NCBI GenBank assembly: GCA_021838715.1
Contig: JAKCCX010000009.1
Coordinates: 1-64,000 of the forward strand
Reading direction: 5' to 3'
Length of the DNA: 64,000 nt
Source of the DNA: Pseudomonadota bacterium
GTDB taxonomy: Bacteria; Pseudomonadota; Gammaproteobacteria; Burkholderiales; Burkholderiaceae_F
The translations under genes were made by a program, and so were the position numbers. Below, one piece after another: positions 39,940 to 63,316 of the stretch. Numbering within the stretch: the stretch's first letter is position 1; every line of letters begins with the position of its first letter. The notes below the pieces were generated by a model. It worked only from the letters and a program-made list of their open reading frames with translations. It ran no database searches and was not told the origin of the DNA.

Positions 39940-40466
39940 TTCAGAACCTCTTCTTGTACCGACAGCACGTTGTGCTTCTCGAAGATCTTGCGGACTTCCT
40001 CGATGCAGTACTGGTCCGACTTGACCATCACCGCAACCTGGTCCTCGGACACCGCCACGTGGTAAAGCTCGCCCTCCATCTTGCGCGGCAGGCCGGCGGA
40101 GATGAGAAATCCCAGCACGGTGATGTACACGCCGCCCATGATCAGGCCTTCATACGTGAGCACGAAGTCCGCGGGGATCGGGATGATGGGCTTGCCGCCC
40201 TTCATCTGGGCGAAGAAGTTTCCCTGCGCGGTCGAGTAGCCGAGGAAGGCCAGGCTCGCGCCACCCAGGGCGCCGAACAGGCTGTACCAGCGCACCGGCT
40301 CGGGGCGCGGCCCCAGCACCTTTTCGACCTCGGGGTGTTCGATCGGCGACTTGATCGTCACGTCGTCCCAGTTCAGGTAGGGCATGTTGGCATTGCGCAG
40401 CTCGAGCAGCGCGGCCGATGCTCCGTCGAAGTCGGAGAAAAGACCCATTATGCGTTTGGTGATCAT
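39936..40466 (-). CDS. actD: Alternative complex III subunit ActD (DUF3341)
   Basis: IMGLFSDFDGASAALLELRNANMPYLNWDDVTIKSPIEHPEVEKVLG; two TM. Confidence 0.9.
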   Translation of the reverse strand: MITKRIMGLFSDFDGASAALLELRNANMPYLNWDDVTIKSPIEHPEVEKVLGPRPEPVRWYSLFGALGGASLAFLGYSTAQGNFFAQMKGGKPIIPIPADFVLTYEGLIMGGVYITVLGFLISAGLPRKMEGELYHVAVSEDQVAVMVKSDQYCIEEVRKIFEKHNVLSVQEEVLK

Positions 40467-41967: not shown

Positions 41968-42822
41968 TCAAGCCTCTTCATCGCGAACGCGCTCGAGATA
42001 CATCACCGAGGGGTACGGCCGCAGGTCCTCGAGGACGCGATAGCCGCGCAGCCCGGGATGCGAGTTCGGGTCGAGATCCTTGAGCTGCCGGTCCTTGTCC
42101 ATCTCCACCCGCTGCAGCCGCCATTGCGTGGCGACGCGGGAATACGGATCGGACAGGTTGCCGAAGCTGATCGCGTTGGTCGGACACGATTGCTGGCAGG
42201 CGGTCTGGACGTCGCCGTCGCGGATTTCGCGCCCTTCCCCGCCCACCCGGTCCTTGCAGTCGACCAGACGCTGCACGCAGAACGTGCACTTCTCCATCAC
42301 GCCCTTGGTCCGCACGGTGAGATCCGGATTGAGCTGCATCGGCAGCGGATCCGGCCAGGCATGTTCCTGCTCGGGGTAGTTGTACCAATTGAAGTACCGC
42401 ACCTTGTACGGGCAGTTGGCCGAGCAGTAGCGCGAACCGACGCAACGGTTGTAGACCTGCGAATTCAGGCCGTCGTTGGTGTGGTTGGTCGCGCCCACCG
42501 GGCACACCGTCTCGCAGGGCGCCGCCTCGCACTGCTGGCACATCATCGGCAGATACTGCGCACCGCGCTCGGGCACGTTTTCGTCCCCGGGCTCCCAATA
42601 GCGCTCGATGCGCATCCAGTGCATCGCCTGACCGGCGTAGAACTTGTCCTCCCCCACGACGGGGAGGTTGTTCTCGGCGTAGCAGGCCACCACGCAGGCG
42701 TTGCAGCCCGTGCAGGCGTCGAGATCGATCGCCATCGCCCACTTGAGGTCGGGGTTCGAGCCGACGCGGGGGTGCTCGGTCCGAAACTTCGCCCAGTCAT
42801 CCGTCATTATTTCCCAGCTCAT
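41968..42822 (-). CDS. actB2: Alternative complex III iron-sulfur subunit (ActB2)
   Basis: KWAMAIDLDACTGCNACVVACYAENNLPVVG; MCQQCEAAPCETVCPVGA; CSANCPYKVRYFNWYNY. Confidence 0.92.
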   Translation of the reverse strand: MSWEIMTDDWAKFRTEHPRVGSNPDLKWAMAIDLDACTGCNACVVACYAENNLPVVGEDKFYAGQAMHWMRIERYWEPGDENVPERGAQYLPMMCQQCEAAPCETVCPVGATNHTNDGLNSQVYNRCVGSRYCSANCPYKVRYFNWYNYPEQEHAWPDPLPMQLNPDLTVRTKGVMEKCTFCVQRLVDCKDRVGGEGREIRDGDVQTACQQSCPTNAISFGNLSDPYSRVATQWRLQRVEMDKDRQLKDLDPNSHPGLRGYRVLEDLRPYPSVMYLERVRDEEA

Positions 42823-42825
42823 GGC

Positions 42826-45135
42826 TTACACCTCCGAATCGAGCTTGGCGGTCGACGCCGGCAGCGTCTTGACCGTTTCGATATGGCCGCGGGTCGTCAG
42901 ATCCCCGGACTTCCAACCCTCATCCTTGATGATGCGCGCGCTGTCGCCGGTCTTGGTTACCTTGACGCGGGTCGCGAACATCGCCAGCTCGCCGGTCTTG
43001 GCATCGAACACCGGATCGAGCATCTGGAAGGGATTCACGCCGCGGCCGCTGGCATAGCGGCCGAAGCTCTCGTGGCCCTGCCCCAGCGGCACACCGATCA
43101 CGTCGGGATGAATGCCCGGGAAGCGGTACACCGGCACGCGAACCGAACCACTGGCCGAGGCGATCTCGATGACGTCGCCGTCGGAGAGTCCCAGGCGGTT
43201 GGCCGTGCTCGGGTGCACTTCGGCCCACGACCCCCAGACGATGGTGGTGAGCGAGTCGGCGGTTTCCTGGATCCACGGCAGGCTGGCGTGGCGGCCATCG
43301 CGGAAGCGGCCGGACATCGGGGCGAGATGGAACGGATAGCCGCCGTCCTGCGCGCCGTTCGCCGATGCAAGATCGATTTCGAGGGCGGCGGGTTCGGTCG
43401 GCGCCTTCTCGGTCTTGGCGTCCGCCAGATGCAGCACGCCGTGGCTCCGGGCGTTGGTCCAGAAATGCCAGTCGCTGTCGGGCAACTGCGCATAGGCCAT
43501 CTTGTAGTCCTGGAACGCCTTGCGGTTGGCGATCACCGCCGTACGGATGTAGGCGTAGTAGTCCGGGAAGCCCTTGTAGTCGTCGGCGCGGCGCTGCTTG
43601 AGCGTCTCCAGCAGGTAATCGCCGATCGAACGCGTGCCATCCGGATAGAGCCGGTTCATCAGCGGCTGCTGCACGGTGAACTGCAATTCGCCTTCCGGCT
43701 GGACCAGCGGCACGTGCGTGCCCCAGTCCTCCATCGCGGAATCGATCGGCAGCACGAGATCGGCCTGCTTGGCGGTCTCGTCGAGATACTGCGTGAAGAC
43801 GACCTTGAAGCCGGCCTTGGCGAAGGCGTCCTTGAACTTCAGGAACGCCGGCGCGGTAAACACCGGGTTGGCGTCGTGGACGAAAACGGTGTCGAACTTG
43901 CCGGCCGCGAGATCCTGGGTGAAGGAACGCAGGGCCGCGGTGCTGCCACCGTTGGGCGCGAGTTGCGGGAAGGGCTGCTCCGAGGGCATGAGCACGGTGC
44001 TGCCCATCGCGCCCAGCACCCAGTTGAGCGCGAGGATCGCCTGCGCGTTGGCGTAGCCGTGGGCATGGCCTTCGGCCGACGGGCCCGAGAGCACCACCGC
44101 CGGATTGCGGCTCTGCATCAGCTTGACGACGCGATCGAACCATTCGCCCTGGATGCCGGTCTCGTTGAGCACGCGCGCCTTGTCGTACGCCGCCGCGACG
44201 GTGACGATCTGCGCCGGAACCTTGGACTTGTCCTTCATCCCGGCAAGCAGCGCGTTGGCGAATCCCAGCGCCAGCACGCCTTCGGTGCCCGGACGAATGG
44301 GAATCCAGCGGTCGGCGTTGGCGCCGGTGAGCGTCATCCGCGGCTCGATCTGCACCAGCGTGCCGCGCGGCTTGCCTTCGTTGGCACGGCGGAAATGCGA
44401 CCAGCGGCCGGAGTAATAGACCGGCGAGACGCCCGTGTCGAGGAAATCCGAACCGAAGGAGACGATGAGCGTCGCCTGGTCAAGCGCATAGCGCGGCACC
44501 TCGGCGCCCAACACCTGCTTCGAAGCGCTGCGATTGGTGGTGTCCGCCAGTGCGTAGTACACATAGGCACCGTTGCCGCCGAATGCTTCGACGGTGTTGT
44601 CGACGAGCACCTTGAGGTGCCCGCTCACCGGCCCGGTCAGGAAGCCGAAACGGCCGTCCTGGGTCGAGGCGGCGTGCTCGCGCAACGCGGCGATCGCTTC
44701 GGTCAGGGTCACCGGCTGCAGCGCGCCGCCCTTGCGCAGCATGGGGGTGTGCAGACGGTCCGGGTTGTAGTGGTGCTGCACACCCGCCTGGCCCAGCCCG
44801 CAGAGCTTGCCGCCGGAGACGGCCGACTCGGGGTTGCCTTCGAGCTTGAGCACCCGCCCGTCGCGGATGCGGCCCTGGATTCCGCAACGGCCGCTGCACT
44901 GGGTGCAGGTCGAGGCGTAGTACACGGCGTCGCCGGGGATGTTGAAATCCTGCGGATTGACGTACGAGTAGACGTGGCTCTTGCCCGACTCGACGTCGGT
45001 GAAGCCGCAGGCGCCGAGGGACGCGGTCGCGCCGCCCCAGCCCAGCACCTTCAAGAAGTCCCGCCGCTGCAGCGGGAGCAGCGGTGCGTCGCCTTCCGGC
45101 GCCGCCGCTGCGGGCTTATGTTTTCCGTTTTCCAT
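42826..45135 (-). CDS. actB1: Alternative complex III molybdopterin-oxidoreductase-like subunit (ActB1)
   Basis: RRDFLKVLGWGGATASLGACGFTDVE; CTQCSGRCGIQGRIRDGRVLKLEGNPE. Confidence 0.92.
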   Translation of the reverse strand: MENGKHKPAAAAPEGDAPLLPLQRRDFLKVLGWGGATASLGACGFTDVESGKSHVYSYVNPQDFNIPGDAVYYASTCTQCSGRCGIQGRIRDGRVLKLEGNPESAVSGGKLCGLGQAGVQHHYNPDRLHTPMLRKGGALQPVTLTEAIAALREHAASTQDGRFGFLTGPVSGHLKVLVDNTVEAFGGNGAYVYYALADTTNRSASKQVLGAEVPRYALDQATLIVSFGSDFLDTGVSPVYYSGRWSHFRRANEGKPRGTLVQIEPRMTLTGANADRWIPIRPGTEGVLALGFANALLAGMKDKSKVPAQIVTVAAAYDKARVLNETGIQGEWFDRVVKLMQSRNPAVVLSGPSAEGHAHGYANAQAILALNWVLGAMGSTVLMPSEQPFPQLAPNGGSTAALRSFTQDLAAGKFDTVFVHDANPVFTAPAFLKFKDAFAKAGFKVVFTQYLDETAKQADLVLPIDSAMEDWGTHVPLVQPEGELQFTVQQPLMNRLYPDGTRSIGDYLLETLKQRRADDYKGFPDYYAYIRTAVIANRKAFQDYKMAYAQLPDSDWHFWTNARSHGVLHLADAKTEKAPTEPAALEIDLASANGAQDGGYPFHLAPMSGRFRDGRHASLPWIQETADSLTTIVWGSWAEVHPSTANRLGLSDGDVIEIASASGSVRVPVYRFPGIHPDVIGVPLGQGHESFGRYASGRGVNPFQMLDPVFDAKTGELAMFATRVKVTKTGDSARIIKDEGWKSGDLTTRGHIETVKTLPASTAKLDSEV

Positions 45136-45149
45136 GACGGTTCCTCCGG

Positions 45150-45854
45150 TCACTTGTGGCACTGCCAGCAATCGTTGGGGCCATGCCCGGACATCGCTTC
45201 GACAACTTGCTCGGGATGCGTGGACATCTCCATCCGCGGATAGATCATGCGCATGCCGTTGAGGATCTTGGGATCCTTGGGCAGCGGATGATTTTTCTGA
45301 TGGCAGGAAATGCACCAGCCCATGCTCAGCGGCTTGACCTTCTGGTCCACCGTCATGTTCTCGACATCGCCGTGGCAATAGCTGCAGACCTCTTTCACCG
45401 GGCGGTGCAGTTCAAAGTAGAAGCGCTGGATATGGCGCATGTGCGGGAAACGCACGAAGTCCGGAAGGTCGTGGACCTTCATGAACGGAATCGGCTTCTT
45501 CTCTTCCCAGTACTGGAAGAGCTTCTTGATCCGTGGCTTGTTGCGCACCGAGGGGATGTAGGTGTGGCAATTGATGCACTTGCGCAGCGGAGGAATCCCC
45601 GACACCCGGCTGCGCCGGGCATAGGTGTGGCAGTACATGCAATTGATGCCCATCTTGCCCGCATGAATGTCATGCGGGAACTCGATCGGCTGCTCCACCT
45701 TGTCGCCGGCAAACGCAGTGTTGGCGATCAAGCCCAGTCCCAGAACCACCCCGAGCGCGGCGAGGGAACGCCCCAGTCCTGCAACAACCCGCGCAAAAAA
45801 GGCGTAGCCCATCCCGCCGCGATTGATCCAATCGCGTAGATTCCGCGTCTTCAT
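45150..45854 (-). CDS. actA: Alternative complex III pentaheme cytochrome ActA
   Basis: Five CXXCH: CMYCH, CINCH, CSYCH, CISCH, CWQCH. Confidence 0.93.
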   Translation of the reverse strand: MKTRNLRDWINRGGMGYAFFARVVAGLGRSLAALGVVLGLGLIANTAFAGDKVEQPIEFPHDIHAGKMGINCMYCHTYARRSRVSGIPPLRKCINCHTYIPSVRNKPRIKKLFQYWEEKKPIPFMKVHDLPDFVRFPHMRHIQRFYFELHRPVKEVCSYCHGDVENMTVDQKVKPLSMGWCISCHQKNHPLPKDPKILNGMRMIYPRMEMSTHPEQVVEAMSGHGPNDCWQCHK

Positions 45855-46293: not shown

Positions 46294-47211
46294 CTACTTC
46301 ACGTCGCGCCAAAACACGTTATTGAGCCAGCGCGCAATCAGGAAAAAAACAACAAGGTAGCCCATCGCCCAGAAACCGACGTGGATGCGTTCCGTCTTTT
46401 TGGGTTCCGACATCCAGTTGAGAAAGGCGACGATGTCGGCGATGTTGTTGTCCGTCGCTTCGGCACGCGCCGGGTCCAGGGGCTGGAACCGGGCGGATTT
46501 GGTTTCCCGTCCGGTCGACAGGCCGGTTTCCGTCGACTGGACATCGCCCTGCGCGTCATAGACGCTGCGCACGCGCACCCAGGGCATTGCCGTCTGGCCG
46601 GGCTTGCGCTTGGCCGGACTTTCTCCGGCGTGCTCGTTGCGCTCGACGCGCACGACCGTGGCGATCCGCGGCCCCTGCATCTGCCAGAAGACGTTGGGCA
46701 TCGCGATGTTGTGAAACACCGCGTTGTTCCAGCCCGTGGACGTCGACCGGTCGCGGTAGAAGCTGCGCAGCAACGTATAGACGTAGTCCGCGCCGTTGTG
46801 TTCGACGGTGCTGTTGGCGCGGATGATCGTCGAGAGATCCGGCGGAGCCTTGCCGAACCACTGCGTGGCATCGCGGGGAACCATCGCGATCGTCATCATG
46901 TCGCCGATGCGCTGGTTGCCGTAGATGAGCTGGCTCTTGATCTGGGTGGCGTCGAGGCCGATCTCCTCGAGCTTATTCCAGCGCATCAGCCGGGCGCTGT
47001 GGCAGTTGAGGCAGTTGGTCACGAACAGCCGCGCGCCGTGCTGCAGGGCGGCCGGATCGTTGGCGCGTTCGCTGGGCCAGCGATCGAGATGCACTTCCGC
47101 GGCCGCGGCGCCGGCGCCAAACGCGAGCAGGGCCGTCGCCAGAAGTCCAGAGAAAATCGCGGGGGAAATCGCGGGGAGCGCCGCGGACCGGACACTACGC
47201 ATGCGAGTCAT
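46294..47211 (-). CDS. petC: Cytochrome c1 of the bc1 complex
   Basis: LFVTNCLNCHSARLMRWNKLEEIGLDATQI; C-terminal TM. Confidence 0.92.
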   Translation of the reverse strand: MTRMRSVRSAALPAISPAIFSGLLATALLAFGAGAAAAEVHLDRWPSERANDPAALQHGARLFVTNCLNCHSARLMRWNKLEEIGLDATQIKSQLIYGNQRIGDMMTIAMVPRDATQWFGKAPPDLSTIIRANSTVEHNGADYVYTLLRSFYRDRSTSTGWNNAVFHNIAMPNVFWQMQGPRIATVVRVERNEHAGESPAKRKPGQTAMPWVRVRSVYDAQGDVQSTETGLSTGRETKSARFQPLDPARAEATDNNIADIVAFLNWMSEPKKTERIHVGFWAMGYLVVFFLIARWLNNVFWRDVK

Positions 47212-47229: not shown

Positions 47230-48624
47230 TCAGTGGGCGGTGAACCGTACGCGGTCCGGAGCCGGCTTGAACGTCCCCATCCGGCTCCACCAGGGCATCA
47301 GCGCAAAGAAGCCGAAGTAGATCGCCATGCAGAACTGCGAGATCAGGTTGCGCATCGGGTTCGGCTCCTGCATGCCGAAATACCCCAGCACGAGGAAGGC
47401 GGCGATGAACACGAAGAGCAGCACGCGGTGCCAGGTCGGGCGGTAGCGCATCGACTTCACCGGCGAGCGGTCGAGCCACGGCAGCGCGAAGAGGATCGTC
47501 ACCGAAATGGCCATCAGGATCACCCCCCAGAGCTTGGCGTCGAGCTGCACCTTGTGCACGGTCGCGAACGAAAACGCCAGCGCCGTGAGGGCCGCCACGA
47601 ACAGGCGCACGCGCCAGCCGCGAACCGTGAAGTAGGTGAGTGCGCCCAGCGCCAGCACGGCGCCGCCCAGCCAGGGCAGGAAGTCGGCGGTGGTGGCGCG
47701 CAGGATGGTGTAGAACGGCGTGAAATACCACAACGGCGCGATGTGCAGCGGCGTCTGCATCGGATCGGCGGGAATGAAGTTGTTGCCCTCCAGGAAGACC
47801 CCGCCCATTTCGGGCGCGAAGAACACCACCGCGAAATAGATGATGAAGAAGAACGCGATGCCGTAGATGTCGTGCACCGTGTAGTAGGGATGGAAGGGAA
47901 TGCCGTCGAGCGGCTTGCCGTTGTCGCCGAGGTGCTCCTTGATCTCGATGCCGTCGGGATTGTTCGAGCCGACGTCGTGCAGCGCCATGACGTGCGCCAC
48001 GATGAGCCCGATCATCACCGTGGGCATGACCATGGTGTGGAGCGCGAAGAAGCGGTTGAGCGTCGCGTCGCCGATGACGAAGTCGCCGCGGATCCAGGTC
48101 GAAAGATCCGCCCCGATCACCGGGATGGAGCTGAACAGGTTGATGATCACCTGGGCGCCCCAGAAGCTCATCTGCCCCCAGGGCAGCAGATAGCCGAAAA
48201 AGGACTCGGCCATCAGGGCGAGGAACAGCACGCAGCCGGCGATCCAGACGATCTCGCGCGGCGTGCGGTAGCTGCCGTAGAGCATCGCCCGGAAGATGTG
48301 GAAGTAGATGACGATGAAGAAGAACGAGGCGCCGACCGAGTGCATGTAGCGGATCAGCCAGCCGCCCTGCACCTCGCGCATGATGAGTTCGACCGACCAG
48401 AACGCCAGGCGCGAGTCGGGCTTGTAGTGCATCGCCAGGAAGGCGCCGCTGACGAGCTGGATGATCAGCACGACGGCGGCGATCGAGCCGAAGAAATACC
48501 AGAAGTTGAAATTCTTCGGCGCGTAGTAGCCGGCGATGTGCGTCTCGAAGATGTCCATGATCGACGGCATGCGCGCGTCGACCCAGCCGAGCAGGCCTTT
48601 GTAGCGGGGGGTATGCAGACCCAT
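47230..48624 (-). CDS. petB: Cytochrome b of the bc1 complex
   Basis: SIAAVVLIIQLVSGAFLAMHYKPD...GASFFFIVIYFHIFRAMLYGSY; APLWYFTPFYTILRA. Confidence 0.95.
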   Translation of the reverse strand: MGLHTPRYKGLLGWVDARMPSIMDIFETHIAGYYAPKNFNFWYFFGSIAAVVLIIQLVSGAFLAMHYKPDSRLAFWSVELIMREVQGGWLIRYMHSVGASFFFIVIYFHIFRAMLYGSYRTPREIVWIAGCVLFLALMAESFFGYLLPWGQMSFWGAQVIINLFSSIPVIGADLSTWIRGDFVIGDATLNRFFALHTMVMPTVMIGLIVAHVMALHDVGSNNPDGIEIKEHLGDNGKPLDGIPFHPYYTVHDIYGIAFFFIIYFAVVFFAPEMGGVFLEGNNFIPADPMQTPLHIAPLWYFTPFYTILRATTADFLPWLGGAVLALGALTYFTVRGWRVRLFVAALTALAFSFATVHKVQLDAKLWGVILMAISVTILFALPWLDRSPVKSMRYRPTWHRVLLFVFIAAFLVLGYFGMQEPNPMRNLISQFCMAIYFGFFALMPWWSRMGTFKPAPDRVRFTAH

Positions 48625-48642: not shown

Positions 48643-49275
48643 CTAGGCATGCACCGGCGCTTCGCCGATGCGGATCGTGTGCTCGTCGAGGAACCGGTAG
48701 GGCGGCACCGCGAGGTTGTCCGCCGCGGGCTTATTCTTGAACACCCGCCCGGCCAGATCGAAGGTCGAGCCGTGACACGGACACAGAAACCCGGGCCACG
48801 GCCCCAACGGCGCCTTCACGCCGGCGGGAAACGGCCCGTTGGGCGAGCAGCCCAGATGCGTGCAGATGCCGATCACGACCAGGAATTCCGGCCGGATCGA
48901 GCGCAGCGCCGGATCTTTCATCACATACGCCGGCGTCGGGTAGTTCTGGCGCTTCGAATCCGGATCGGCGAGCGCGGTGGTGTCCTCGTGCAGGACCCGG
49001 ATCATCTCCGGCGTGCGGTGCAGGATCCATACCGGCTTGCCGCGCCACTTGACGATGCGCATGGTGCCGGGCGGGATGCCGGACACATCGACGTCGACCG
49101 GCGCGCCCGCGGCCTTGGCGCCGTCGGTCGGCCCCCAGGACGCGACATAGGGCACCGCCAGCGCCGCGACCCCCGCCCCGCCGACGATGGCGGTGGCCAC
49201 CACCGCGGTGCGTCGTTCGACATCCGGGCCGGGGGGCGGCGGAGCGGTCGTGCTGTTGTTGGTGTTGTTCGACAT
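48643..49275 (-). CDS. petA: Rieske iron-sulfur subunit of the bc1 complex
   Basis: CTHLGCSP...FLCPCHGSTFDLAGRVFKNKPAADNLAVPPYRF. Confidence 0.95.
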   Translation of the reverse strand: MSNNTNNSTTAPPPPGPDVERRTAVVATAIVGGAGVAALAVPYVASWGPTDGAKAAGAPVDVDVSGIPPGTMRIVKWRGKPVWILHRTPEMIRVLHEDTTALADPDSKRQNYPTPAYVMKDPALRSIRPEFLVVIGICTHLGCSPNGPFPAGVKAPLGPWPGFLCPCHGSTFDLAGRVFKNKPAADNLAVPPYRFLDEHTIRIGEAPVHA

Positions 49276-49394
49276 GGTTCGTTCCTCGGCCGTTTTACAT
49301 CTCGCGATCAGGATACTGCGCTGCAGCAACCTTACTGCATCATGCCAGGGTAAAATTTCATGACAGACGCACCAATCCTGACCCGTATCAATCA

Positions 49395-49685: not shown

Positions 49686-49757
49686 ACAGTAGCGACAGGC
49701 GCGTCTCCGGCCAATATCGTTCCCGGAAACCTCCATCTGGAAAAACGGATCACCGCC

Positions 49758-50162
49758 ATGGGACTGGTCTACGCCGACGTCGAAATCGAAAACTGTTTCA
49801 ACCATCGCAGGCTGACCGTCAGCGCCGTCGTGGACTCCGGCGCGGTATTCCTATGCGTGCCCGAGCACATCGCTGTGCAACTTGGATTTGACGCCACGGA
49901 AACCGAAACGCGGGAAGTCCGGATGGCGAACGGGCACGTCCAGGCCGTGCCCATCATCGGCCCACTGCGGATCCGCTTCGCGGGGCGGCACTGCGACTGC
50001 TCCGCGCTGGTCCTGGGCGACGAAACACTCTTCGGAGCGGTGCCAATGGAGATGATGGATCTCGTCGTGCATCCGGCGACGCGGCAACTTTCCGTCCATC
50101 CCGAGAGTCCGTATGTCCCCAGGGCGCACGCCAAATCGGCACGCCGCGCAGCCACGCCATAA
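49758..50162 (+). CDS. Retropepsin-like (clan AA) aspartic protease family protein
   Basis: VSAVVDSGAVFLCVPEHIAVQLGF (D-S-G motif). Confidence 0.72.
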   Translation: MGLVYADVEIENCFNHRRLTVSAVVDSGAVFLCVPEHIAVQLGFDATETETREVRMANGHVQAVPIIGPLRIRFAGRHCDCSALVLGDETLFGAVPMEMMDLVVHPATRQLSVHPESPYVPRAHAKSARRAATP

Positions 50163-50193
50163 AAAATGGGAGCCGGTAGGCTCCCATTTTTTA
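50159..50193. terminator. Rho-independent terminator (likely bidirectional)
   Basis: taaaaaATGGGAGCCggtaGGCTCCCATttttta. Confidence 0.85.
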
Positions 50194-50251
50194 TGGGATC
50201 CGCCGGCGCCGGGTTGCGGCGCGGGCGGATTTGCTGCAGGTACTTCGGCGA

Positions 50252-51073
50252 TTACTTCAGGGACTGGACGTAGGCCGCCACATCCTTGAAATCCTGATCG
50301 CTCAGGTTGGCCACCAGGGCCGCCATCTGGTCGATCTGCCGCTGGCCGGAACGGATCGCGACCAACTGCTGATAGACGTAGTCGGCGTGCTGGCTGGCCA
50401 GGCGGGGGATCGACCCCTGTCCGGCGGCGGCCGGGCCGTGGCACATCTGGCAGGGCAGCAGGCCTTTGGACATATCGCCGTTCAGGAACAGCGATTGGCC
50501 GTGGGCGATGTTGCCGTTGACCTCTCCGGTGGCCGGAGCGGCCGGGGTCTGCTTCGAGAAGAATTCAGCCAGCGCGTTCATGGTCGGTTGATCCAGATCG
50601 CGGGCCACGCCCTTCATGAAGTCCCAGGCCTTCTCTTCGTTGCGCGGAGTGCGCTCGGACTTGTAGTCGTTCGAGTGCACGTACCCCGTGTAGGGCTTGC
50701 GCCAGCCGGTGATGTCCTTGAACCACATCTCGACGTAGCCCTCGTGGGTCACGTTCTTGGCCTGCCACGTCTCCCACTGGTTGAGGTTGTGGAAGTTGAT
50801 CAGCTGGTTGACGATGTAGTCCTTCTGCTGGCCGGCCAGGTTCGGGAAGATCGGGTTGACCGATCGCCCGCCAGGACCGTGGCAGGAGGAACACCAGGTC
50901 ACGGCCAGGTGCTGCGCGCGTGCGGGCGCGAGTTCCTGGGCCAGGGCCTTGGTGTTGGCGTCATCCAGTTCACTGGCGTTCGCAACCACTGCGAACGTCG
51001 AGGTCACCGCCAGCGCGATCCCGGTGAGGAGGCTGGCCACTCGCGGCAAGTTCCGCGTCATCTTCGTCTCCAT
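50252..51073 (-). CDS. Diheme cytochrome c (c4-type)
   Basis: Signal peptide; CSSCH and CQMCH motifs; two c4-like domains. Confidence 0.88.
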   Translation of the reverse strand: METKMTRNLPRVASLLTGIALAVTSTFAVVANASELDDANTKALAQELAPARAQHLAVTWCSSCHGPGGRSVNPIFPNLAGQQKDYIVNQLINFHNLNQWETWQAKNVTHEGYVEMWFKDITGWRKPYTGYVHSNDYKSERTPRNEEKAWDFMKGVARDLDQPTMNALAEFFSKQTPAAPATGEVNGNIAHGQSLFLNGDMSKGLLPCQMCHGPAAAGQGSIPRLASQHADYVYQQLVAIRSGQRQIDQMAALVANLSDQDFKDVAAYVQSLK

Positions 51074-51099: not shown

Positions 51100-52536
51100 T
51101 TAGAACACCCACCAGATTGCGCCGGTCAGACGGTTGAAGTCGGACGGGTTGGTGTTTCCTGCATAACCCGGGATGCCCGACGTGTACCCATCAAGCTTGT
51201 TGAACGCCTGGTACATCAGGCTGAACCGCAAATCCTGCATCGGCAGATAGTTCAGTTCCAGCGTCCAGAAGTTGGTTGCGGCGTTTCCGGTGGCGATGTA
51301 GCCGGCGTTGGGATCCTGATACGCGGCACCCGTTCCCGTGAAGTCCGTCCAACCCAGGGTCACACCGTACTGGCGGTTGTAGTACGCGGTGCCGCGGATG
51401 TTGAACTCTTTCAGGGTGTTGTCGCCATAGCCGTTCGCTGCCTGATTGCTGTGCTCGATGATGTACGAACCCGATGCCGTGTACACCCAGGGCTCGCCCT
51501 TGTTGTACTGGTACTGGCTGTCGAGGCCGATATCGCGGTAGTAGTTGAACGCGCCGGGAGTTACGCCGGTCGAGCAGTTTTGGCTGCTGATGGCATTGCC
51601 GCTTCCGTCAACCGTGATATTGCAGGTCCGCGCGTCGGTGCCGAACAAGCCGGCCTCAAACGAGTTGTAACCCCAATCGTGGCTGTACGCGATGCGGTAG
51701 TAGGGCGCATAGTTGTCGAGCGCCTCGCCCGTCCCCTGGTTGGTGGTCGAATTTACGCTGATCGTCCCGCCCGGGTTGGCACCATTGCCCCAGTTGAACT
51801 CGTTCAAAGCGCCGTTGGTATTGCGACGCAGAGCGAATTCGGCATAGATCGTCTTATGCCACCACACATAGGTACCCAAACCGACGGTCGCACCCGGGGT
51901 GCTGAAGTTGTCGAGGAAGGTGCCCGGAACGGCCGGTCCGACGAGGGGGGACGGATAGTTGTTGTACGGGAACCAGGGGAAGCGCCAGGCGGGGACCGTA
52001 TTCCAGACGTCCTGCATCGTGTAGTCGTTGTTGACGTACACACCCAGGACCGCTTCCGGCTCCAGCGAGCTCGAGGTCGTGAACCGGTGGACATAACGGG
52101 CTTCCGTGTTGTCGACCGTCGGCGTGAAGCTTGCCGTTCCCGGCATCCCCGCATTGCTGCCGGACATCTGGCCGAACACGCCCAGGTTGTCGGTGATCCG
52201 GCCACCGAAGAAGACGCTGTACTGGGTGAGCTGGGCATGGTTCAGCCCGGCCGACGAAGCGCCGGCGCCGGACTTGACGCCCGGCATCGTGTCGTACTCG
52301 CCCATCAGCGCGAACGCCAGCGGGATCGGCTGGGCTTCGCCGAAGGTGTAACCGTTGAGTTTGAACTCGCGGCCATACGCAGTCAGCTCGGGATAGCTGA
52401 TGTGACAAGCGGCACAGTTGTGCCCCGTCTGGCGCGCGAACAGCGGAATCGCCTGCGCAGGCGCGGTCAGCCCGAGGTAGGCCGCGCCGGCAAGGAGACC
52501 GGCCGCCAGCCAACGGGCGTAGCGAATCAGAGTCAT
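51100..52536 (-). CDS. Outer-membrane monoheme cytochrome-porin fusion (Cyc2-like architecture)
   Basis: Signal peptide, IPLFARQTGHNCAACHISYPELTAYGREFKLNGYTF (CXXCH), then ~420 aa beta-barrel-like sequence ending in ...IWWVF (C-terminal Phe). Start at MTLIRYARWL. Confidence 0.72.
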   Translation of the reverse strand: MTLIRYARWLAAGLLAGAAYLGLTAPAQAIPLFARQTGHNCAACHISYPELTAYGREFKLNGYTFGEAQPIPLAFALMGEYDTMPGVKSGAGASSAGLNHAQLTQYSVFFGGRITDNLGVFGQMSGSNAGMPGTASFTPTVDNTEARYVHRFTTSSSLEPEAVLGVYVNNDYTMQDVWNTVPAWRFPWFPYNNYPSPLVGPAVPGTFLDNFSTPGATVGLGTYVWWHKTIYAEFALRRNTNGALNEFNWGNGANPGGTISVNSTTNQGTGEALDNYAPYYRIAYSHDWGYNSFEAGLFGTDARTCNITVDGSGNAISSQNCSTGVTPGAFNYYRDIGLDSQYQYNKGEPWVYTASGSYIIEHSNQAANGYGDNTLKEFNIRGTAYYNRQYGVTLGWTDFTGTGAAYQDPNAGYIATGNAATNFWTLELNYLPMQDLRFSLMYQAFNKLDGYTSGIPGYAGNTNPSDFNRLTGAIWWVF

Positions 52537-54826: not shown

Positions 54827-55306
54827 TCAGGATTGCGCGGCGGGTTTCTCCAGGCGCTTGATCGCGTCCTGCGCGGCACGGTACTGCGCGTCGTCCTCGA
54901 ACTGCCCGCGCGCAAAGACATACTGCATGCGGTTGCCCTGCCGATCGAGTCCGGTGACGCCGAACGACTTGCCCGCGTAATCGCCGTAGAGCTTGATCGT
55001 CTTGACCAGATCGATGCGCGTACCGCTGCGCAACTCGACGACGACGATTTCCTCGTCGCCGTTGACCTCGATGTGCACGGGCGACGACGGCAGCGCCATC
55101 ATCCGCATCCGCAGCATGCGGTTGACACCGGCGAGGAAAAAGAAGGTGCCGAGAAACACCAGGACGTAGGTGACGTTGTGCTCATGGCGGAACCACTCGA
55201 CGCCGCCGAAATAGAGCAGGAAAAATACGGTGGGGACGTAGAGCAGGATGTCCCAGAGGAGCCCCTTTTCGTCCGGCTGGAGGTCGAATTTTGCGGGTTT
55301 TGCCAC
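54827..55306 (-). CDS. Hypothetical two-TM protein with a PH-like C-terminal domain
   Basis: GLLWDILLYVPTVFFLLYFGGVEWFRHEHNVTYVLVFLGTFFFLAGVNRML; last gene of the 57.4-54.8 kb minus-strand operon. Confidence 0.55.
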   Translation of the reverse strand: MAKPAKFDLQPDEKGLLWDILLYVPTVFFLLYFGGVEWFRHEHNVTYVLVFLGTFFFLAGVNRMLRMRMMALPSSPVHIEVNGDEEIVVVELRSGTRIDLVKTIKLYGDYAGKSFGVTGLDRQGNRMQYVFARGQFEDDAQYRAAQDAIKRLEKPAAQS

Positions 55307-55332
55307 GGTGTCGGTTCTTTCCTCTTTTCTCC

Positions 55333-55374
55333 ACCCTCACCCCCGCCCTCTCCCGCCGTCGCGGGAGAGGGGGA
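55333..55374. repeat. REP-like palindrome copy 4
   Basis: accctcacccccgccctctcccgccgtcgcgggagaggggga. Confidence 0.85.
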
Positions 55375-55409
55375 AGATCGGGTTTCGCTCCGGGGTTTTT
55401 CGGCTCGCG

Positions 55410-56030
55410 CTAGCCCATCGTCCCGGAATTGGCGTCGGGGAGGATTTTCTTGATCGCGTCCTGCATTTCGCCATACAGCATCTTGCCGGCCTCGGTTTCG
55501 CGGACGATGCCGTTCTTGTCGATGGCGAAAGTCCATGGATCGCCCATCACCCGGAACGCCTTGTAGGCCTGCGGGTTCATGTACTGATCCATGTGGATGA
55601 AGATGACCTGGTTGCCATACTTGTCGAGCAGTGCCTTGGCGACCTGCAACTGCTCGTCGCATTCGGTGCAGTGCCCGGGGGTCGCAAAAACGAGCAGGAT
55701 GGGCTTGTGCAACGTCAGCGCCTTGGCCACCGAGTACTGGTACATGCGCGGATCGGGCTCGCGGTAGGTCGTGACCTTCGAAAGGTCCCCTCCGGCGTCG
55801 GCGAGCGTCTTGGTATCGACCGCCGGCGCATGGGTTCCGACTGCCAGGCCACGGAAGATCCCGCCATAGCTCCCGTCATTGCTGCACGCCGAGAGGGCGA
55901 TCGTGGCCGCCACCGCCGCGCCCAGCGCGAAGCGGGACCATCCCGCCCCCGCGGCACCGCGTCCGCTTCCATCGACTGCCGCCGCCTGCCCGGAGCCGCT
56001 CGCGCCTCGCCTGCCATCCATCGGCTTCAT
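55410..56030 (-). CDS. Thioredoxin-fold lipoprotein
   Basis: Lipobox LSACSND; KPILLVFATPGHCTECDEQLQVAKALLDKYGNQVIFIHMD. Confidence 0.72.
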   Translation of the reverse strand: MKPMDGRRGASGSGQAAAVDGSGRGAAGAGWSRFALGAAVAATIALSACSNDGSYGGIFRGLAVGTHAPAVDTKTLADAGGDLSKVTTYREPDPRMYQYSVAKALTLHKPILLVFATPGHCTECDEQLQVAKALLDKYGNQVIFIHMDQYMNPQAYKAFRVMGDPWTFAIDKNGIVRETEAGKMLYGEMQDAIKKILPDANSGTMG

Positions 56031-56044
56031 GGGAACCTCCTGCG

Positions 56045-56302
56045 TCAGAAAAGGATGCCGCCCAACATTTGCAGCGCGCCGAACACCACCGCCAACAACA
56101 CTCCGACGATGATCGCCAGAAACATGATCTTTTCGCCCAGCTTCGGCTTCTCCGGCCGATTCTTGCTGAACCAGAAAATGGCGATGATGACGGTGAAGGT
56201 GATGATGCCAACCAGCAGAAACGCGAAGACCGCTTCGCTGAACTGCTGGCTGCGCATCCCTTCGATCGTGAAGTCGAGGGCGTGGGACGGCTTTTGGTAC
56301 AT
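56045..56302 (-). CDS. Two-TM hypothetical protein
   Basis: MYQKPSHALDFTIEGMRSQQFSEAVFAFLLVGIITFTVIIAIFWF...; start inferred at 56302. Confidence 0.55.
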   Translation of the reverse strand: MYQKPSHALDFTIEGMRSQQFSEAVFAFLLVGIITFTVIIAIFWFSKNRPEKPKLGEKIMFLAIIVGVLLAVVFGALQMLGGILF

Positions 56303-56337
56303 GGCGGGAGATGCCTGGAAAAATCCGGGGGACGCCC

Positions 56338-56859
56338 CTACTTCGCCATCCGTTCCCGCCACCCCATCGCGGTGCGCAGGAGGTTGTAGCCCCAGATGAT
56401 GTTGGCGAGGAGCACCAGTGTGCCGAACGGCCCGGTCAGCGCCATCATGCGGTGATAGACCTTCGACGACACATCCGGGTCGTTGGCGGCGGTGATCAGC
56501 GGCGCCATGCCCGCCAGCGTGAAGAACACCACCAGGCCGACCAGCCCGATGTTATGCATCCAGAAGTGCACCTTGACCAGCTTGACGCTGTAGATGCGGC
56601 CGTTGGTGAGCTTGGGCACGACGTAGTAGAGCGCACCGAAGATCGCCATCTCGACCCAGCCGAGAAGGTTGACGTGCGTGTGCGCGAGCACGATCTTCTG
56701 GCCGTAGGCGGAATAGTCGACGAAGTCGCGAAACGACTTCATGCCCCCCATGAATGCACCCCAACTGAATCCGATGATGCTGTACACGATGCACGCGAAC
56801 ACGAACAGCAGCGTGTACCACGTGAAATCTTCCCGTTCCTGCCGGGTCAACTCAGTGCC
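56338..56859 (-). CDS. 4-TM truncated heme-copper oxidase subunit I-like protein
   Basis: AHTHVNLLGWVEMAIFGALYYVVPKLTNGRIYSVKLVKVHFWMHNIGLVG aligns by eye with HVHAVIFGWISMAFGMAMMYITPALGNTKLWSEKLGLWNALSWNVG of the CcoN at 60411..61817. Confidence 0.7.
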   Translation of the reverse strand, partial: GTELTRQEREDFTWYTLLFVFACIVYSIIGFSWGAFMGGMKSFRDFVDYSAYGQKIVLAHTHVNLLGWVEMAIFGALYYVVPKLTNGRIYSVKLVKVHFWMHNIGLVGLVVFFTLAGMAPLITAANDPDVSSKVYHRMMALTGPFGTLVLLANIIWGYNLLRTAMGWRERMAK

Positions 56860-57436
56860 CATTATTGTGTTGCTCCCCTTCCTTGTTCCGGATGTCGTCA
56901 AATCCGATGCGCCAGCTCTCCGGCGCCCATACGCGCAGCATGTCGTCGATAAAGCTCGACTTCCCCCGCGGCGGCATCTTCGCGTCCGGCGCCCCGCGAT
57001 CGGCCGTCAACTCGGAAAGAAATACCGCAAGGTAATGCCGATCCTGCGCCGGCAGCTTCGCTACCCACGCGGCATCCTGGGTCGGACCATGATCGAAAGT
57101 CGGCGCGCCATAGTTCTTCGCCGGGTCGGCCAGAAACGCTTCGATCCACTTCTCCGAGCGCCGGGAGCCCTCGCCGTCGAGGTCGAGCACCGAACTCGTG
57201 CCGTTGCCGATCGCGCGGTGGCACTCGGTGCACCAGTCGGTGCGAAACAGCACCGAACCCTTTTTGCCGTCGGGGGAAAAATCGAAATGGGTCAGGATGG
57301 GATAGAGCGGCTTGGGAGAGTGGTAGCCGATCCACTCGAGAGAGGCGAAGTTCTGGACTACAACGAATCCAAGAAAAATCACGATGCCGAAGAGAATTTT
57401 TTCTCCGGTGCGGAGCCCTTTCCACTTCTTCCACAT
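56852..57436 (-). CDS. Membrane-anchored monoheme cytochrome c
   Basis: N-terminal TM; FRTDWCTECHRAIGNGTSS; overlaps the downstream ORF start. Confidence 0.82.
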   Translation of the reverse strand: MWKKWKGLRTGEKILFGIVIFLGFVVVQNFASLEWIGYHSPKPLYPILTHFDFSPDGKKGSVLFRTDWCTECHRAIGNGTSSVLDLDGEGSRRSEKWIEAFLADPAKNYGAPTFDHGPTQDAAWVAKLPAQDRHYLAVFLSELTADRGAPDAKMPPRGKSSFIDDMLRVWAPESWRIGFDDIRNKEGEQHNNGH

Positions 57437-57516
57437 GGTATTCCAGCCTGGAGAACCTGCCTGCTAGGGCGACCCGGATACGAGCCTCCACGAAACAGGA
57501 AGTTCCCGAATCCCAA

Positions 57517-57547
57517 TAAAAAAGGCCGCGCCGAGGTGGCGCGGCCT
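57517..57547 (-). terminator. Rho-independent terminator ending the oxidase/c4 operon
   Basis: Minus strand AGGCCGCGCCacctcGGCGCGGCCTtttttatt. Confidence 0.82.
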
Positions 57548-57581
57548 TGCATTCTACCGCAACGCAGGAGCGATATTCCGC

Positions 57582-58358
57582 TCAGCGCTTGACGTCGATG
57601 TTCGCCAGGACGGAATCCCCATGCGGCACGAACGTATCACCGATCGCGGTGAGTCGCGCGTGCGACAGGAAGGTCGCCAGGTTATTGATGTCGTCGTCCG
57701 TCAGGTGACTCGCAACCGCGCGCATCTGACCCAGCGGGTCGTTGGTGCGCTCCTTGGCGCGCCAGTGATGCAGCATGTTGACGAGATAGACGTACTTCTG
57801 CTCGGCGATCCGCGGATAGATCGGACCGGCGCCGCGGCCGTCATACTGGTGGCAGGTCTGGCAGGCCGTGATGCCGCGGCTGGGCTTGCCGTAGCGCACG
57901 ATTTCCATCCCCTTGTACGCCACCCCGACCGGGGTTCCGCTTGCCTTGAGCGCGTCCAGATCCGACAGGTCCTTCCAGTCGTCCGGAATCGTGTTCAGGT
58001 AGGCGGCGACATTGCGAATGTCCTGGTCCGTCATCTGCTGCGCGAATACGCCCATGACGCCCAGTGTCAGATCCTTGCGGGCGCCGGAACGAAAATTCGT
58101 CAGCTGTTTGACGGTGTATGCGTAGCCGAGGTTTTGATTCCGCGGCGTCTGCATCGCGTCGATACCCATACCGTGCGGTCCATGGCAGCTCTGGCAGGGC
58201 GAAACGCCCGGCTTGCCGTTATGGAAAAGATTGCTACCCGCGGCGATGTCGGCCGTGACCGGCGGTTGGTCGGCATATGCCGCACCTGCCGTCAGCAAGG
58301 CGCCGGCGATCACCAGAGACATCGGTGCGAACCGAGTCCAGCGTTTACCAAGTCGCAT
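57582..58358 (-). CDS. Diheme cytochrome c4
   Basis: CQSCHGPHGMGIDAM and CQTCHQYDGRGAGP; signal peptide. Confidence 0.9.
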   Translation of the reverse strand: MRLGKRWTRFAPMSLVIAGALLTAGAAYADQPPVTADIAAGSNLFHNGKPGVSPCQSCHGPHGMGIDAMQTPRNQNLGYAYTVKQLTNFRSGARKDLTLGVMGVFAQQMTDQDIRNVAAYLNTIPDDWKDLSDLDALKASGTPVGVAYKGMEIVRYGKPSRGITACQTCHQYDGRGAGPIYPRIAEQKYVYLVNMLHHWRAKERTNDPLGQMRAVASHLTDDDINNLATFLSHARLTAIGDTFVPHGDSVLANIDVKR

Positions 58359-58449
58359 TGACTCCCCCTATTTCGAAAATTTCTTACGTTTTGCGTTCTG
58401 ACCCGGCAGGCGGCCCGGATTGGAGCCAGCCTGCCGGAAATCGGTCGTT

Positions 58450-58560
58450 TTACCCGCGGTTCTTGCCGAACAGAATCGCGAGAATTGCGAGGATGAACGC
58501 GAACCACACTCCGTACATCGCGAACACCTGGCCAGTCGTGGTATCAGGTTCGAACAGCAT
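58450..58560 (-). CDS. 36-aa single-TM micro-ORF (CcoQ-like position)
   Basis: MLFEPDTTTGQVFAMYGVWFAFILAILAILFGKNRG*; upstream GAGAAAGGA purine tract; not in ORF track. Confidence 0.65.
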   Translation of the reverse strand: MLFEPDTTTGQVFAMYGVWFAFILAILAILFGKNRG

Positions 58561-58596
58561 ACCTTTCGTCCTTTCTCTCTACGTCCCGGAGTCGCG

Positions 58597-58722
58597 TTAG
58601 TTCTTGATCTGCGGGGTGTTCTTGTCCCACTTGTCGATGACCAGCGCGTAGAACTGCGGCGCAATCAGGACAAGCATCACGATGCAGAACAGCACGAGCG
58701 GGGGATTGTCGATATCGATCAT
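58597..58722 (-). CDS. 41-aa single-TM micro-ORF
   Basis: MIDIDNPPLVLFCIVMLVLIAPQFYALVIDKWDKNTPQIKN*; perfect AGGAGG Shine-Dalgarno. Confidence 0.7.
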   Translation of the reverse strand: MIDIDNPPLVLFCIVMLVLIAPQFYALVIDKWDKNTPQIKN

Positions 58723-58761
58723 TTGCGTTTCCTCCTAATGTTTTTCGACGCGGACACCGGC

Positions 58762-59391
58762 TCAGTGCCCGAGGTGGCGCGGCTGCCAGGAACTCGGCGG
58801 CAGACGCTTGATCGCGATCGTCGTCCCGGTGAAGAAGAACACGATGAAGAACAGGTCGATGAAGTAGCCCTTGTCCCACCATGGCTGGATGTGCAGGTGC
58901 CGCGTGACCCCGTGGTTATCGGTGATGAGGTTGCCTTCGAAGTTCGCCATCGTCACGTGATCCCCGACGATGTTGTACTCCTGCAGGTTATCCCCCGCCG
59001 CTTCCAGGGCCTTGATCTGCGGCGCGATGGCGCGCAGATCGTCCATGGTCAGCGGATGGCGTTCGCGCAACGCCTGCCACTTGCCGCCGTCGTCGCTCTT
59101 GGTCATCTGGGCGATCGCGGCCATGGCGGCCTTGTCGTCCTTCATCGCCTGGATCTGCGGCGTGTCCATCGCGGCGACATAGCCCGCATAGATCGCCGCA
59201 TTCGGGCGCTGCCCCCAGAGGGGGAAGGTGATCGCGAACGCGGTCATGACGGTCAAGACCACGAGCGCGACGATGGGCTTCGGAACGCGGTTGTTGTCCT
59301 CCGTCAGGCCGCCGAGGGCCTCACGCTCCCATAGCGCCTTGGCCTTGGCATTCAGGCCGTCGTCGCTCATCGAAACGAGAAAACTAGCCAT
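58762..59391 (-). CDS. Two-TM protein lacking CXXCH, possible heme-less CcoP-position subunit
   Basis: PKPIVALVVLTVMTAFAITFPLWGQ N-terminal TM, soluble middle, C-terminal TM; within the ccoNO-like operon. Confidence 0.6.
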   Translation of the reverse strand: MASFLVSMSDDGLNAKAKALWEREALGGLTEDNNRVPKPIVALVVLTVMTAFAITFPLWGQRPNAAIYAGYVAAMDTPQIQAMKDDKAAMAAIAQMTKSDDGGKWQALRERHPLTMDDLRAIAPQIKALEAAGDNLQEYNIVGDHVTMANFEGNLITDNHGVTRHLHIQPWWDKGYFIDLFFIVFFFTGTTIAIKRLPPSSWQPRHLGH

Positions 59392-59424: not shown

Positions 59425-60378
59425 TTACTTCAGACTGAGAACGAAGTCGATGAGCGAACGGATTTCCGCATCCTTCGCGTACATCGGAACGTCCGGCGGC
59501 AGCGGGCTGCGCCCCTCGTGGTAGTCGAGGTACGCCTTGCGCCACGCGTCGAAGTCGATCTTGTTGCCGTTGGCGTCCACCGAACCCCACAGATAGTCGT
59601 AGCGGGGCATGATGGAGTGCGGCTGCACCAGGCGGGGGTTGAAGAAGTGCATCATCAACCACTCGCGCGAGCTGTTGCGCGCAGCGACGTGCAGCAGGTC
59701 GGGCGCCTTTCGGTCGGAACCGAAAGCCGTCGGCGACTCGCCGTTGAAGTCGCCCAAGGACGGCGGCGCGCCGAAGTATTGCCAATCCTGCGTCTCTTCC
59801 GGAAGCAGGGTGTGGCACCACCAGCACTGCTCACGGACGAAGAGGGTCTTGCCCGCACCGACGTGGGCAATGTCCTCGTCCTTGGCCTTGCTCAGCACGT
59901 CCTCGGGACTCCACCCCTTGGTGGCGGTGAGGTCGTCGATGTAGGCGAACTGCTGGCCGTTCACGTCGCCGTGTCCGATCCCGAACACGGCGCCCTGCGC
60001 GGCATTCGCCTCCTTGACGTGGCCCAGCTGCACCGACAGCATGCCGCCGTTTTCGCCCAGCGTCACGGGGTGATCGACCCCGTTCGGCATGCGCACGCCG
60101 GGACGGTAGACGTACACCGTCATCGGCGGGTTGATCGCGGCGCCGGTCTTCGGGTCGGCATGAACCGTGACCGTCAGCGGCTTGTTGTCGCCCTGCAGGA
60201 ACGGATCCTGCAGGTTGAAGCCGGTCTCCCAACCCGCGGACAACTGCTTATGAAGCGCCATGTCCGTCGCAATCGCCTGGCGCATGTCCATCGTGGGCAT
60301 GACCAGGGTGATGAACATGGAACTGGACAGCGCGACGCCGAACATTCGCGCACCGATCTTATATTCACGAAACGCCAT
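59425..60378 (-). CDS. CcoO-like monoheme cytochrome c subunit of a cbb3-type oxidase
   Basis: FVREQCWWCHTLLPEETQDW...GSDRKAPDLLHVAARNSSREWLMMHFFNPRLVQPHSIMPRYDYLW resembles CcoO. Confidence 0.85.
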   Translation of the reverse strand: MAFREYKIGARMFGVALSSSMFITLVMPTMDMRQAIATDMALHKQLSAGWETGFNLQDPFLQGDNKPLTVTVHADPKTGAAINPPMTVYVYRPGVRMPNGVDHPVTLGENGGMLSVQLGHVKEANAAQGAVFGIGHGDVNGQQFAYIDDLTATKGWSPEDVLSKAKDEDIAHVGAGKTLFVREQCWWCHTLLPEETQDWQYFGAPPSLGDFNGESPTAFGSDRKAPDLLHVAARNSSREWLMMHFFNPRLVQPHSIMPRYDYLWGSVDANGNKIDFDAWRKAYLDYHEGRSPLPPDVPMYAKDAEIRSLIDFVLSLK

Positions 60379-60410: not shown

Positions 60411-61817
60411 TTATCGCTCGTAGGCAAGCTCTTGCGGCATGCGGCCGGCCGGAATCACCGTTCCCTCACGCGCAGTCAGCCACATGTTGATCAGCCACAG
60501 GACGTTGCCGGTGAACACCATCGTGCCACCGATCCAGCGGGCGATCATGTACGGGTGCTCGGCAATCACCACGTCGATATACGGGACTTCGTAGATCTTG
60601 CCCGCGCCCTGAATCAGGCCGGCGATCGTCATCGAAACCCAGTAGGTCGTGAAGCCGATGAGCAGCATCCAGTAGTGCACGTTGCCCAGGGTCAGCGAGT
60701 ACAGCTTGCGACGCATGATGTTCTGCAGACCGAAGTAGACCGCGGCGACTTCCAGGAAGGTCGAGAAGCCGAGCAGCGCGAGGTGCGCGTGGGCCACGAT
60801 CCAGCCGGTGCCGTGGATGTACCAGTTGATCGCGCGGGTCTGCTGGAAGCCGCCTTGCATGTTCAGCGGGATGGCCATCAGCACGCCCGTGATCGTGAAG
60901 CGGATTTCCAGGTTTTCCACGAACATGTGCCACTTGCCCTGCATGGTGAGCATCAGGTTGGACACGAACGCGATCGCGGGCACCAGGATCAGCACGCCTT
61001 CCACCGACGCGAAGGACTTGAGCCACTCCGGCAGCGGGGCGGACATCAGGTGGTGCGCAGCGGGGGTCGAGTAGAACACCACGACCGACCAGAAGTGCAG
61101 GTGGCCGATGCGGTGCGAGTACAGCGGGTTGCCCGTGACCTTCGGCACCGTGTAGTACGCGATCGCGGCGGCAACCGGGGTGATCCAGAGGCCGAGCACG
61201 TTGTGCGCGAACCACCAGGTCATGTAGCCCTCGGTCAGACCGGTCAGGTGGAAGAACTCGGGCGTGTTACCGACCAGGAACACGATGGTGACCATGAACA
61301 CGGCGGCGGCGAAGAACCAGTTCGTCGTGTAGATCCCCTGCGTGCGGCGCTGGATGACCGTCATCCACACGTTGATGCACAGCGGCAGCACCATCGCGAA
61401 CGCGATGTAGAGGTCGATGAACCACGGGAAGTCGGAGTACTCCCGGCCCGAGGTGATCCCGGCCCACAGTACCGTCAGGCCCAGGGAAAGGCCGACGTTC
61501 CAGGAGAGGGCGTTCCACAGGCCCAGCTTTTCGGACCACAGCTTGGTGTTGCCCAGGGCGGGCGTGATGTACATCATCGCCATACCGAAGGCCATCGAGA
61601 TCCAGCCGAAAATCACCGCATGGACGTGCACCTGGCGCATGTGGCCAAACGCGAAGTACATGTTGCCGGTGACGAAATCCGGGAAACCGAGCTTGGCGGC
61701 GTTGAATGAACCGAGGCCGGTCCCGATGACAAACCACAGGATGGCGGAAAAGCCCCAGTAGATGGCCGCCGCCCCGTTTGGAATGTCTTCATTACGTGCA
61801 AATAGATACTTAAACAT
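60411..61817 (-). CDS. CcoN-like catalytic subunit of a divergent cbb3-type oxidase
   Basis: HVHAVIFGW, WWFAHNVLGLWITP, HLHFWSVVVFYSTPAAHHLMSAPLPEW, HGTGWIVAHAHLALLGF. Confidence 0.88.
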   Translation of the reverse strand: MFKYLFARNEDIPNGAAAIYWGFSAILWFVIGTGLGSFNAAKLGFPDFVTGNMYFAFGHMRQVHVHAVIFGWISMAFGMAMMYITPALGNTKLWSEKLGLWNALSWNVGLSLGLTVLWAGITSGREYSDFPWFIDLYIAFAMVLPLCINVWMTVIQRRTQGIYTTNWFFAAAVFMVTIVFLVGNTPEFFHLTGLTEGYMTWWFAHNVLGLWITPVAAAIAYYTVPKVTGNPLYSHRIGHLHFWSVVVFYSTPAAHHLMSAPLPEWLKSFASVEGVLILVPAIAFVSNLMLTMQGKWHMFVENLEIRFTITGVLMAIPLNMQGGFQQTRAINWYIHGTGWIVAHAHLALLGFSTFLEVAAVYFGLQNIMRRKLYSLTLGNVHYWMLLIGFTTYWVSMTIAGLIQGAGKIYEVPYIDVVIAEHPYMIARWIGGTMVFTGNVLWLINMWLTAREGTVIPAGRMPQELAYER

Positions 61818-63304: not shown

Positions 63305-63316
63305 GGAGCGGCTCGC

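Follow-up and report, generated by a model that had tools for sequence, protein, structure and literature searches.

The window, by which we mean the whole stretch of 64,000 nucleotides analysed here, carries on its minus strand a cyc2-like gene followed by a gene for a diheme cytochrome, with the following features:

51100..52536, minus strand: cyc2-like gene for a cytochrome-porin of 478 aa, stop codon included, with an open reading frame and a strong ribosome-binding site.
52453..52536, minus strand: putative signal peptide, residues 1-28, with a basic n-region, a hydrophobic core and AQA before the mature start.
52384..52452, minus strand: Cyc2 signature and heme site AIPLFARQTGHNCAACHISYPEL, residues 29-51, fitting AXPXFAR[Q/K][T/Y], CXXCH and PXL (PMC8406198).
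51103..52320, minus strand: predicted 16-strand beta-barrel, residues 73-478, from an AlphaFold2 model and Foldseek.
50252..51073, minus strand: diheme c4-type cytochrome (Cyc1-like) of 273 aa, the proposed electron acceptor, with two CXXCH and Pfam Cytochrom_C matches.
50157..50196, minus strand: strong stem-loop after the c4 gene, an 18-bp stem flanked by A and T runs.

The cyc2-like reading frame runs from an ATG, with AGGAGG just 5' of it, to a TAA stop, and residues 1-28 of its product (...TAPAQA) can be read as a signal peptide. Behind the signal stretch ending in APAQA, the protein continues with IPLFARQTGHNCAACHISYPELTAYGREFKLNGYTF. It contains exactly one CXXCH, the CAACH at residues 41-45, which lies three residues behind AIPLFARQT (29-37) and three residues ahead of PEL, the signature reading AIPLFARQT-GHN-CAACH-ISY-PEL along the protein; 20,000 shuffles of the same protein did not once yield such a motif. 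At the other end, the chain closes with WWVF. Keffer et al. 2021 (PMC8406198) describe Cyc2 by the motif AXPXFAR[Q/K][T/Y], which they report as unique to the family, together with CXXCH, PXL, a minimum length of 365 aa and a porin of 16 strands, and the window protein has all of the sequence features: the motif, a single CXXCH with PXL, and 478 aa. Searches of Pfam, NCBIfam and PDB sequences gave no informative match, and in Pfam and NCBIfam no match to any family, as is expected because the Cyc2 family has no model there.

The predicted structure points in the same direction. An AlphaFold2 run on the protein with 64 aligned homologues gave a model with a pLDDT of 79.9 and a pTM of 0.81, in which 16 long strands span residues 73 to 477, two short ones (268-273 and 315-317) being omitted from this count. 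The Foldseek matches of the model were the 16-strand porins OmpF, OmpC, Omp36 and DcaP, at E values of about 1e-9, so the protein is predicted to carry a 16-strand barrel of the porin type. A viral fold library returned only weak porin matches. The first-pass annotation had read a signal peptide, a single CXXCH near the mature start and a region of ~420 aa ending in Phe, like that of outer-membrane beta-barrels, as the architecture of Cyc2, and had named an AlphaFold model as a check. The signal peptide fits by sequence, the lone CXXCH and the terminal Phe are as described, and the modelled barrel, the diagnostic motif and near-full-length homology to Cyc2 proteins of rus operons agree with that proposal. 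We are thus highly confident that this is a cytochrome-porin of the Cyc2 family, presumably located in the outer membrane; it is a new yet ordinary member of a known family.

Within that family, we compared the protein with reference Cyc2 genes taken from genomes in which cyc2 lies beside coxA and the rusticyanin gene (loci L175, L176 and L171), a c4-type cyc1 standing in between in L175 and L176 and going undetected in L171. The window protein aligns with these rus-operon proteins almost from end to end, at about 30% identity, and it shares with the Acidithiobacillus ferrooxidans type (Cluster 2) the motif, the single heme, the length, the porin-type barrel and an adjacent c4-type cyc1. With Cluster 1 Cyc2 (Mariprofundus, Gallionellaceae), it shares the motif, the single heme and the length class, and Cluster 1 organisms also carry a split-actB alternative complex III (ACIII) and a cbb3 oxidase; in contrast, the Cluster 1-type proteins of Gallionellaceae match it over the first ~120 residues only. 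In the IQ-TREE tree, these Gallionellaceae form a separate clade (100/100) that excludes the window genus, while the latter falls on the same side as the rus-operon Cyc2 proteins and those of family f223, probably the Ferrovaceae to judge from its order, its Cyc2 type, the size of its genomes and the number of its genera (compare PMC13390463), although the root of the tree is uncertain. A wider clade (95/89) unites the window genus with Burkholderia, Pseudomonas, Chromobacterium, Curvibacter, Methylophilaceae and family f223, whose Cyc2 forms a clade of its own; the window protein likewise stands in a subclade separate from the rus-operon Cyc2. In AU tests, trees that place the window genus beside the long branch of Cluster 1 (p 0.37) or beside f223 (p 0.33) were not rejected, and the deep branching of the Cyc2 tree is therefore not fixed. 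Judged by its sequence, the protein falls outside Cluster 1 of the Gallionellaceae and, over its full length, is closer to the Cyc2 of rusticyanin operons. This is also how the phylogenetic placement envisaged in the first-pass annotation turned out, and its caution that the gene might belong with functionally uncharacterised cytochrome-porin relatives holds in the sense that the protein sits in a subclade inside Cyc2 for which we found no functionally characterised member in the Cyc2 literature.

Several further observations concern the family at large. A conserved Met, present in 37 of 58 sequences, was considered as a universal second heme ligand and discarded, as the rus-operon proteins lack it and the window protein has it displaced by two residues. 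A plasmid search with the cyc2-like protein retrieved distant homologues only, among them one on the A. ferrooxidans plasmid CP084173.1 (positions 49686-51053, locus L150; 25% identity, annotated as hypothetical), and a match on an Acidiphilium cryptum plasmid had scores identical to it. One metagenome-assembled contig carries a second, distant Cyc2-like gene (L091, 18347-19774, minus strand), and genome G550 of family f9 has three full-length Cyc2-like genes on contigs C146, C160 and C222.

The c4 gene starts 26 bp after the stop of the cyc2-like gene, on the same strand. Its two CXXCH and two Pfam Cytochrom_C stretches describe two fused class I heme domains, and the best PDB match of the protein is 1h1o (cytochrome c-552; E 2.2e-23), which we take to be the A. 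ferrooxidans CYC41/Cyc1, with other c4 structures close behind. Li et al. 2023 (PMC10654088) describe AfCyc1 as a c4 protein encoded behind cyc2 in the rus operon, and the window c4 is homologous to the cyc1 products of the rus-operon loci L175 and L176. It thus resembles 1h1o in its two c-type heme domains and its position downstream of cyc2, but differs in being a 273-aa precursor, compared with a 183-aa chain, and in having about 50 additional residues between its two 1h1o-aligned regions. In 65 of 78 related loci, cyc2 is followed within about 350 bp by a c4 homologue of the same orientation (E <= 1e-8), and 3 of the 13 loci lacking the pair end at a contig end without room for it; elsewhere in the flanks of the 78 loci, c4-type matches amounted to a handful only. 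The cyc2-c4 pair is therefore a conserved unit, in line with the early suggestion that the diheme cytochrome downstream is a plausible partner. The stem-loop 3' of the c4 gene (z = -7.6 for the surrounding 101-nt segment) is likely to be a terminator, possibly a bidirectional one, and was not listed by a scan for consensus terminators; given its position after c4, the two genes probably share one transcript. A sigma-70 promoter scan gave no match.

The pair is embedded in a ~24-kb block of the minus strand, 61817 to 38219, that is broken up by two plus-strand genes and consists of oxidase genes, cyc2-c4, a cytochrome bc1 complex and an actA-B1-B2-C-D-E-F cluster:

60411..61817, minus strand: CcoN-like oxidase subunit I (Pfam COX1, 245 bits; best PDB match cbb3 subunit I, E about 6e-59).
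59425..60378, minus strand: CcoO-like subunit with a long N-terminal extension (FixO match from residue 175).
54827..59391, minus strand: oxidase-associated genes, their order conserved in genomes G001, G002 and G003.
48643..49281, minus strand: Rieske protein of cytochrome bc1 (TIGR01416, 194 bits; syntenic in three sister genomes).
47230..48624, minus strand: cytochrome b of bc1 (Pfam Cytochrome_B, 220 bits).
46294..47211, minus strand: cytochrome c1-like subunit of bc1 (one CXXCH, gene order and sister-genome conservation; weak family matches).
45150..45845, minus strand: ActA of ACIII, with five CXXCH (QrcA-like; cytochrome c7/c3 matches).
42826..45141, minus strand: ActB1, molybdopterin-oxidoreductase-like (QrcB-like, 246 bits; Pfam Molybdopterin).
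41968..42822, minus strand: ActB2, iron-sulfur subunit (QrcC-like, 212 bits).
40463..41836, minus strand: ActC, NrfD-like membrane subunit (Pfam NrfD, 85 bits).
39936..40466, minus strand: ActD (Pfam ActD PF11821, 88 bits, cut-off 25.7).
39337..39939, minus strand: ActE, monoheme cytochrome c (one CXXCH; Pfam Cytochrome_CBB3).
38219..39373, minus strand: ActF, NrfD/QrcD-like membrane subunit (weak QrcD match and position; ActC-like, conserved in sister genomes).

The stretch 54827..59391 encodes diheme and monoheme cytochromes, a CcoN-like fragment, a thioredoxin-like protein and small membrane proteins; the fragment (56338-56901, minus strand; 187 aa) matches the C-terminal third of CcoN/COX1 only (Pfam COX1 308-412) and is conserved in the genus. 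Beside the block, at 62903-63799 (plus strand) and at 64052-66161 of contig C41 (minus strand, partly beyond the window), lie genes for a small membrane protein and for a monoheme cytochrome, followed by genes that, judged by eye, resemble ccmC, ccmB and ccmA of cytochrome c maturation. From 45845 to 38219, the gene order is actAB1B2CDEF with a split actB, the ACIII of the iron-oxidizer type: neutrophilic iron oxidizers are described with the same seven act genes and split actB (PMC4643136), and Fe(II) strongly induces ACIII in Sideroxydans ES-1 (PMC8788666). The early annotation had recognised the c4 neighbour but not the bc1 complex, the ACIII and the cbb3-type oxidase that share this conserved block. 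The contiguous arrangement of cyc2 with most of a respiratory chain is unusual; in a limited literature search, we found no description of a contiguous block of cyc2, c4, bc1, ACIII and cbb3, and in flanks reaching up to 10 kb either way, none of the 78 related loci has the other block genes of the window.

Genomes G001, G002 and G003 of the same genus have the redox genes of the block in the same order. Orthologues of the cyc2-like protein occur in four same-genus genomes, at identities of 88, 88, 59 and 49% and with no internal stops, whereas in two others (89% and 64% complete) neither the cyc2-like gene nor the oxidase was detected. Between sister genomes, Cyc2 is the most diverged redox gene of the block (46-87% identity vs 91-99% for CcoN), as a decayed gene or a mis-called reading frame might be. 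We regard this explanation as practically negligible, given that the gene is intact wherever sister genomes carry it, with motif and length conserved, and combines a strong ribosome-binding site with a coherent predicted fold.

The pathway known from rus operons does not fit this locus. No rusticyanin was found in the genome itself or in six same-genus genomes, and the block oxidase is of the cbb3 type and not aa3; where the rus-operon system has rusticyanin and an aa3 oxidase, the block has bc1, ACIII and a cbb3-type oxidase instead. As to the wider occurrence of this oxidase, the extended CcoO has homologues along its full length (E <= 1e-16) in only 18 of 399 sampled Burkholderiales genomes, which belong to the window genus, to families f223 and f218, and to the Gallionellaceae (f24). 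A Cyc2 homologue accompanied it in 16 of these 18 genomes vs 77 of the 381 others (Fisher p 2.6e-9, shared ancestry being ignored), and, counted by genus, in 7 of 8 oxidase-bearing vs 37 of 150 other genera (p 6e-4, again ignoring shared ancestry). Family f223, whose small genomes come from several genera and, in all members sampled, encode a Cyc2 of the rus-operon side, offers a close comparison: in the loci compared, its CcoN is 86-88% identical to that of the window and its extended CcoO about 61-64%, and several members have ACIII genes directly beside this oxidase. Unlike in the window, its cyc2 lies more than 50 kb from the oxidase in both genomes that have a full-length cyc2 and the oxidase on one contig.

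From this context we infer iron oxidation, and consider it likely that the cyc2-like protein oxidizes Fe(II). A different electron source or sink, namely another reduced metal, a reduced compound or a partner cell, with c4 as the universal partner of a true Cyc2 homologue, would suit a subclade made up mostly of organisms in which iron oxidation has not been reported and the cyc2-c4 pair occurs without the respiratory block; moreover, Keffer et al. caution that distant Cyc2 homologues may differ in function. However, in the window genus the gene adjoins a split-actB ACIII, a bc1 complex and an oxidase that tracks Cyc2-bearing Burkholderiales genomes, three RuBisCO large-subunit genes are present in the genome, and Sulfuriferula strains with Cyc1 and a Cluster 2 Cyc2 have been reported to grow on Fe(II). 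As such, we hold a substrate other than Fe(II) to be unlikely, if worth bearing in mind.

The direction of electron flow may be weighed in the same way. Like MtoAB, PioAB and MtrAB, the locus combines a porin with a cytochrome to move electrons across the outer membrane, although those systems use two proteins, ten hemes and a 26-strand barrel, where a single protein with one heme and 16 predicted strands would suffice here. According to the literature, Mtr/Mto systems can run both ways, and the protein might by analogy export electrons as a terminal reductase or overflow valve. This seems very improbable to us, as one heme in the pore, the c4 partner, the oxidase in the block and the RuBisCO genes fit uptake, and iron oxidation has been reported for related Cyc2 proteins from three clusters.

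With Fe(II) oxidation as the preferred reading, we propose the following path, in which the substrate and the direction and order of electron flow are deduced from the gene content. The cyc2-like protein would be exported through Sec and receive its heme at CAACH, whereupon the 16-strand barrel would insert into the outer membrane and hold the small heme domain at its periplasmic opening. Fe(II) in solution might then enter the pore and pass an electron to the single heme, from which the adjacent c4 would take it directly, without rusticyanin, and shuttle it across the periplasm. A downhill branch could lead through the cytochromes of the block to the cbb3-type oxidase encoded with them, and an uphill branch, driven by the proton gradient, through bc1 and/or ACIII to the quinone pool and complex I, yielding NAD(P)H for CO2 fixation. 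More broadly, we tentatively suggest, at somewhat less than even confidence, that this uncultured Burkholderiales genus has gathered a rusticyanin-independent module for Fe(II) respiration, from the outer-membrane oxidase and the c4 shuttle to the two uphill complexes and the downhill oxidase, into one locus of ~24 kb, and that the cyc2-c4 pair is a general and widespread two-gene unit of electron uptake in proteobacteria presumed not to oxidize iron.

Whether Cyc2 homologues outside the known iron oxidizers oxidize iron is a question raised by the authors who defined the family, and the present locus provides one Cyc2 subclade with a strong metabolic context. It names the adjacent c4 as the likely periplasmic partner of Cyc2 and suggests that rusticyanin is dispensable. 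In addition, CcoN together with the extended CcoO might be used as a second marker by which to recognise iron oxidation in genomes.
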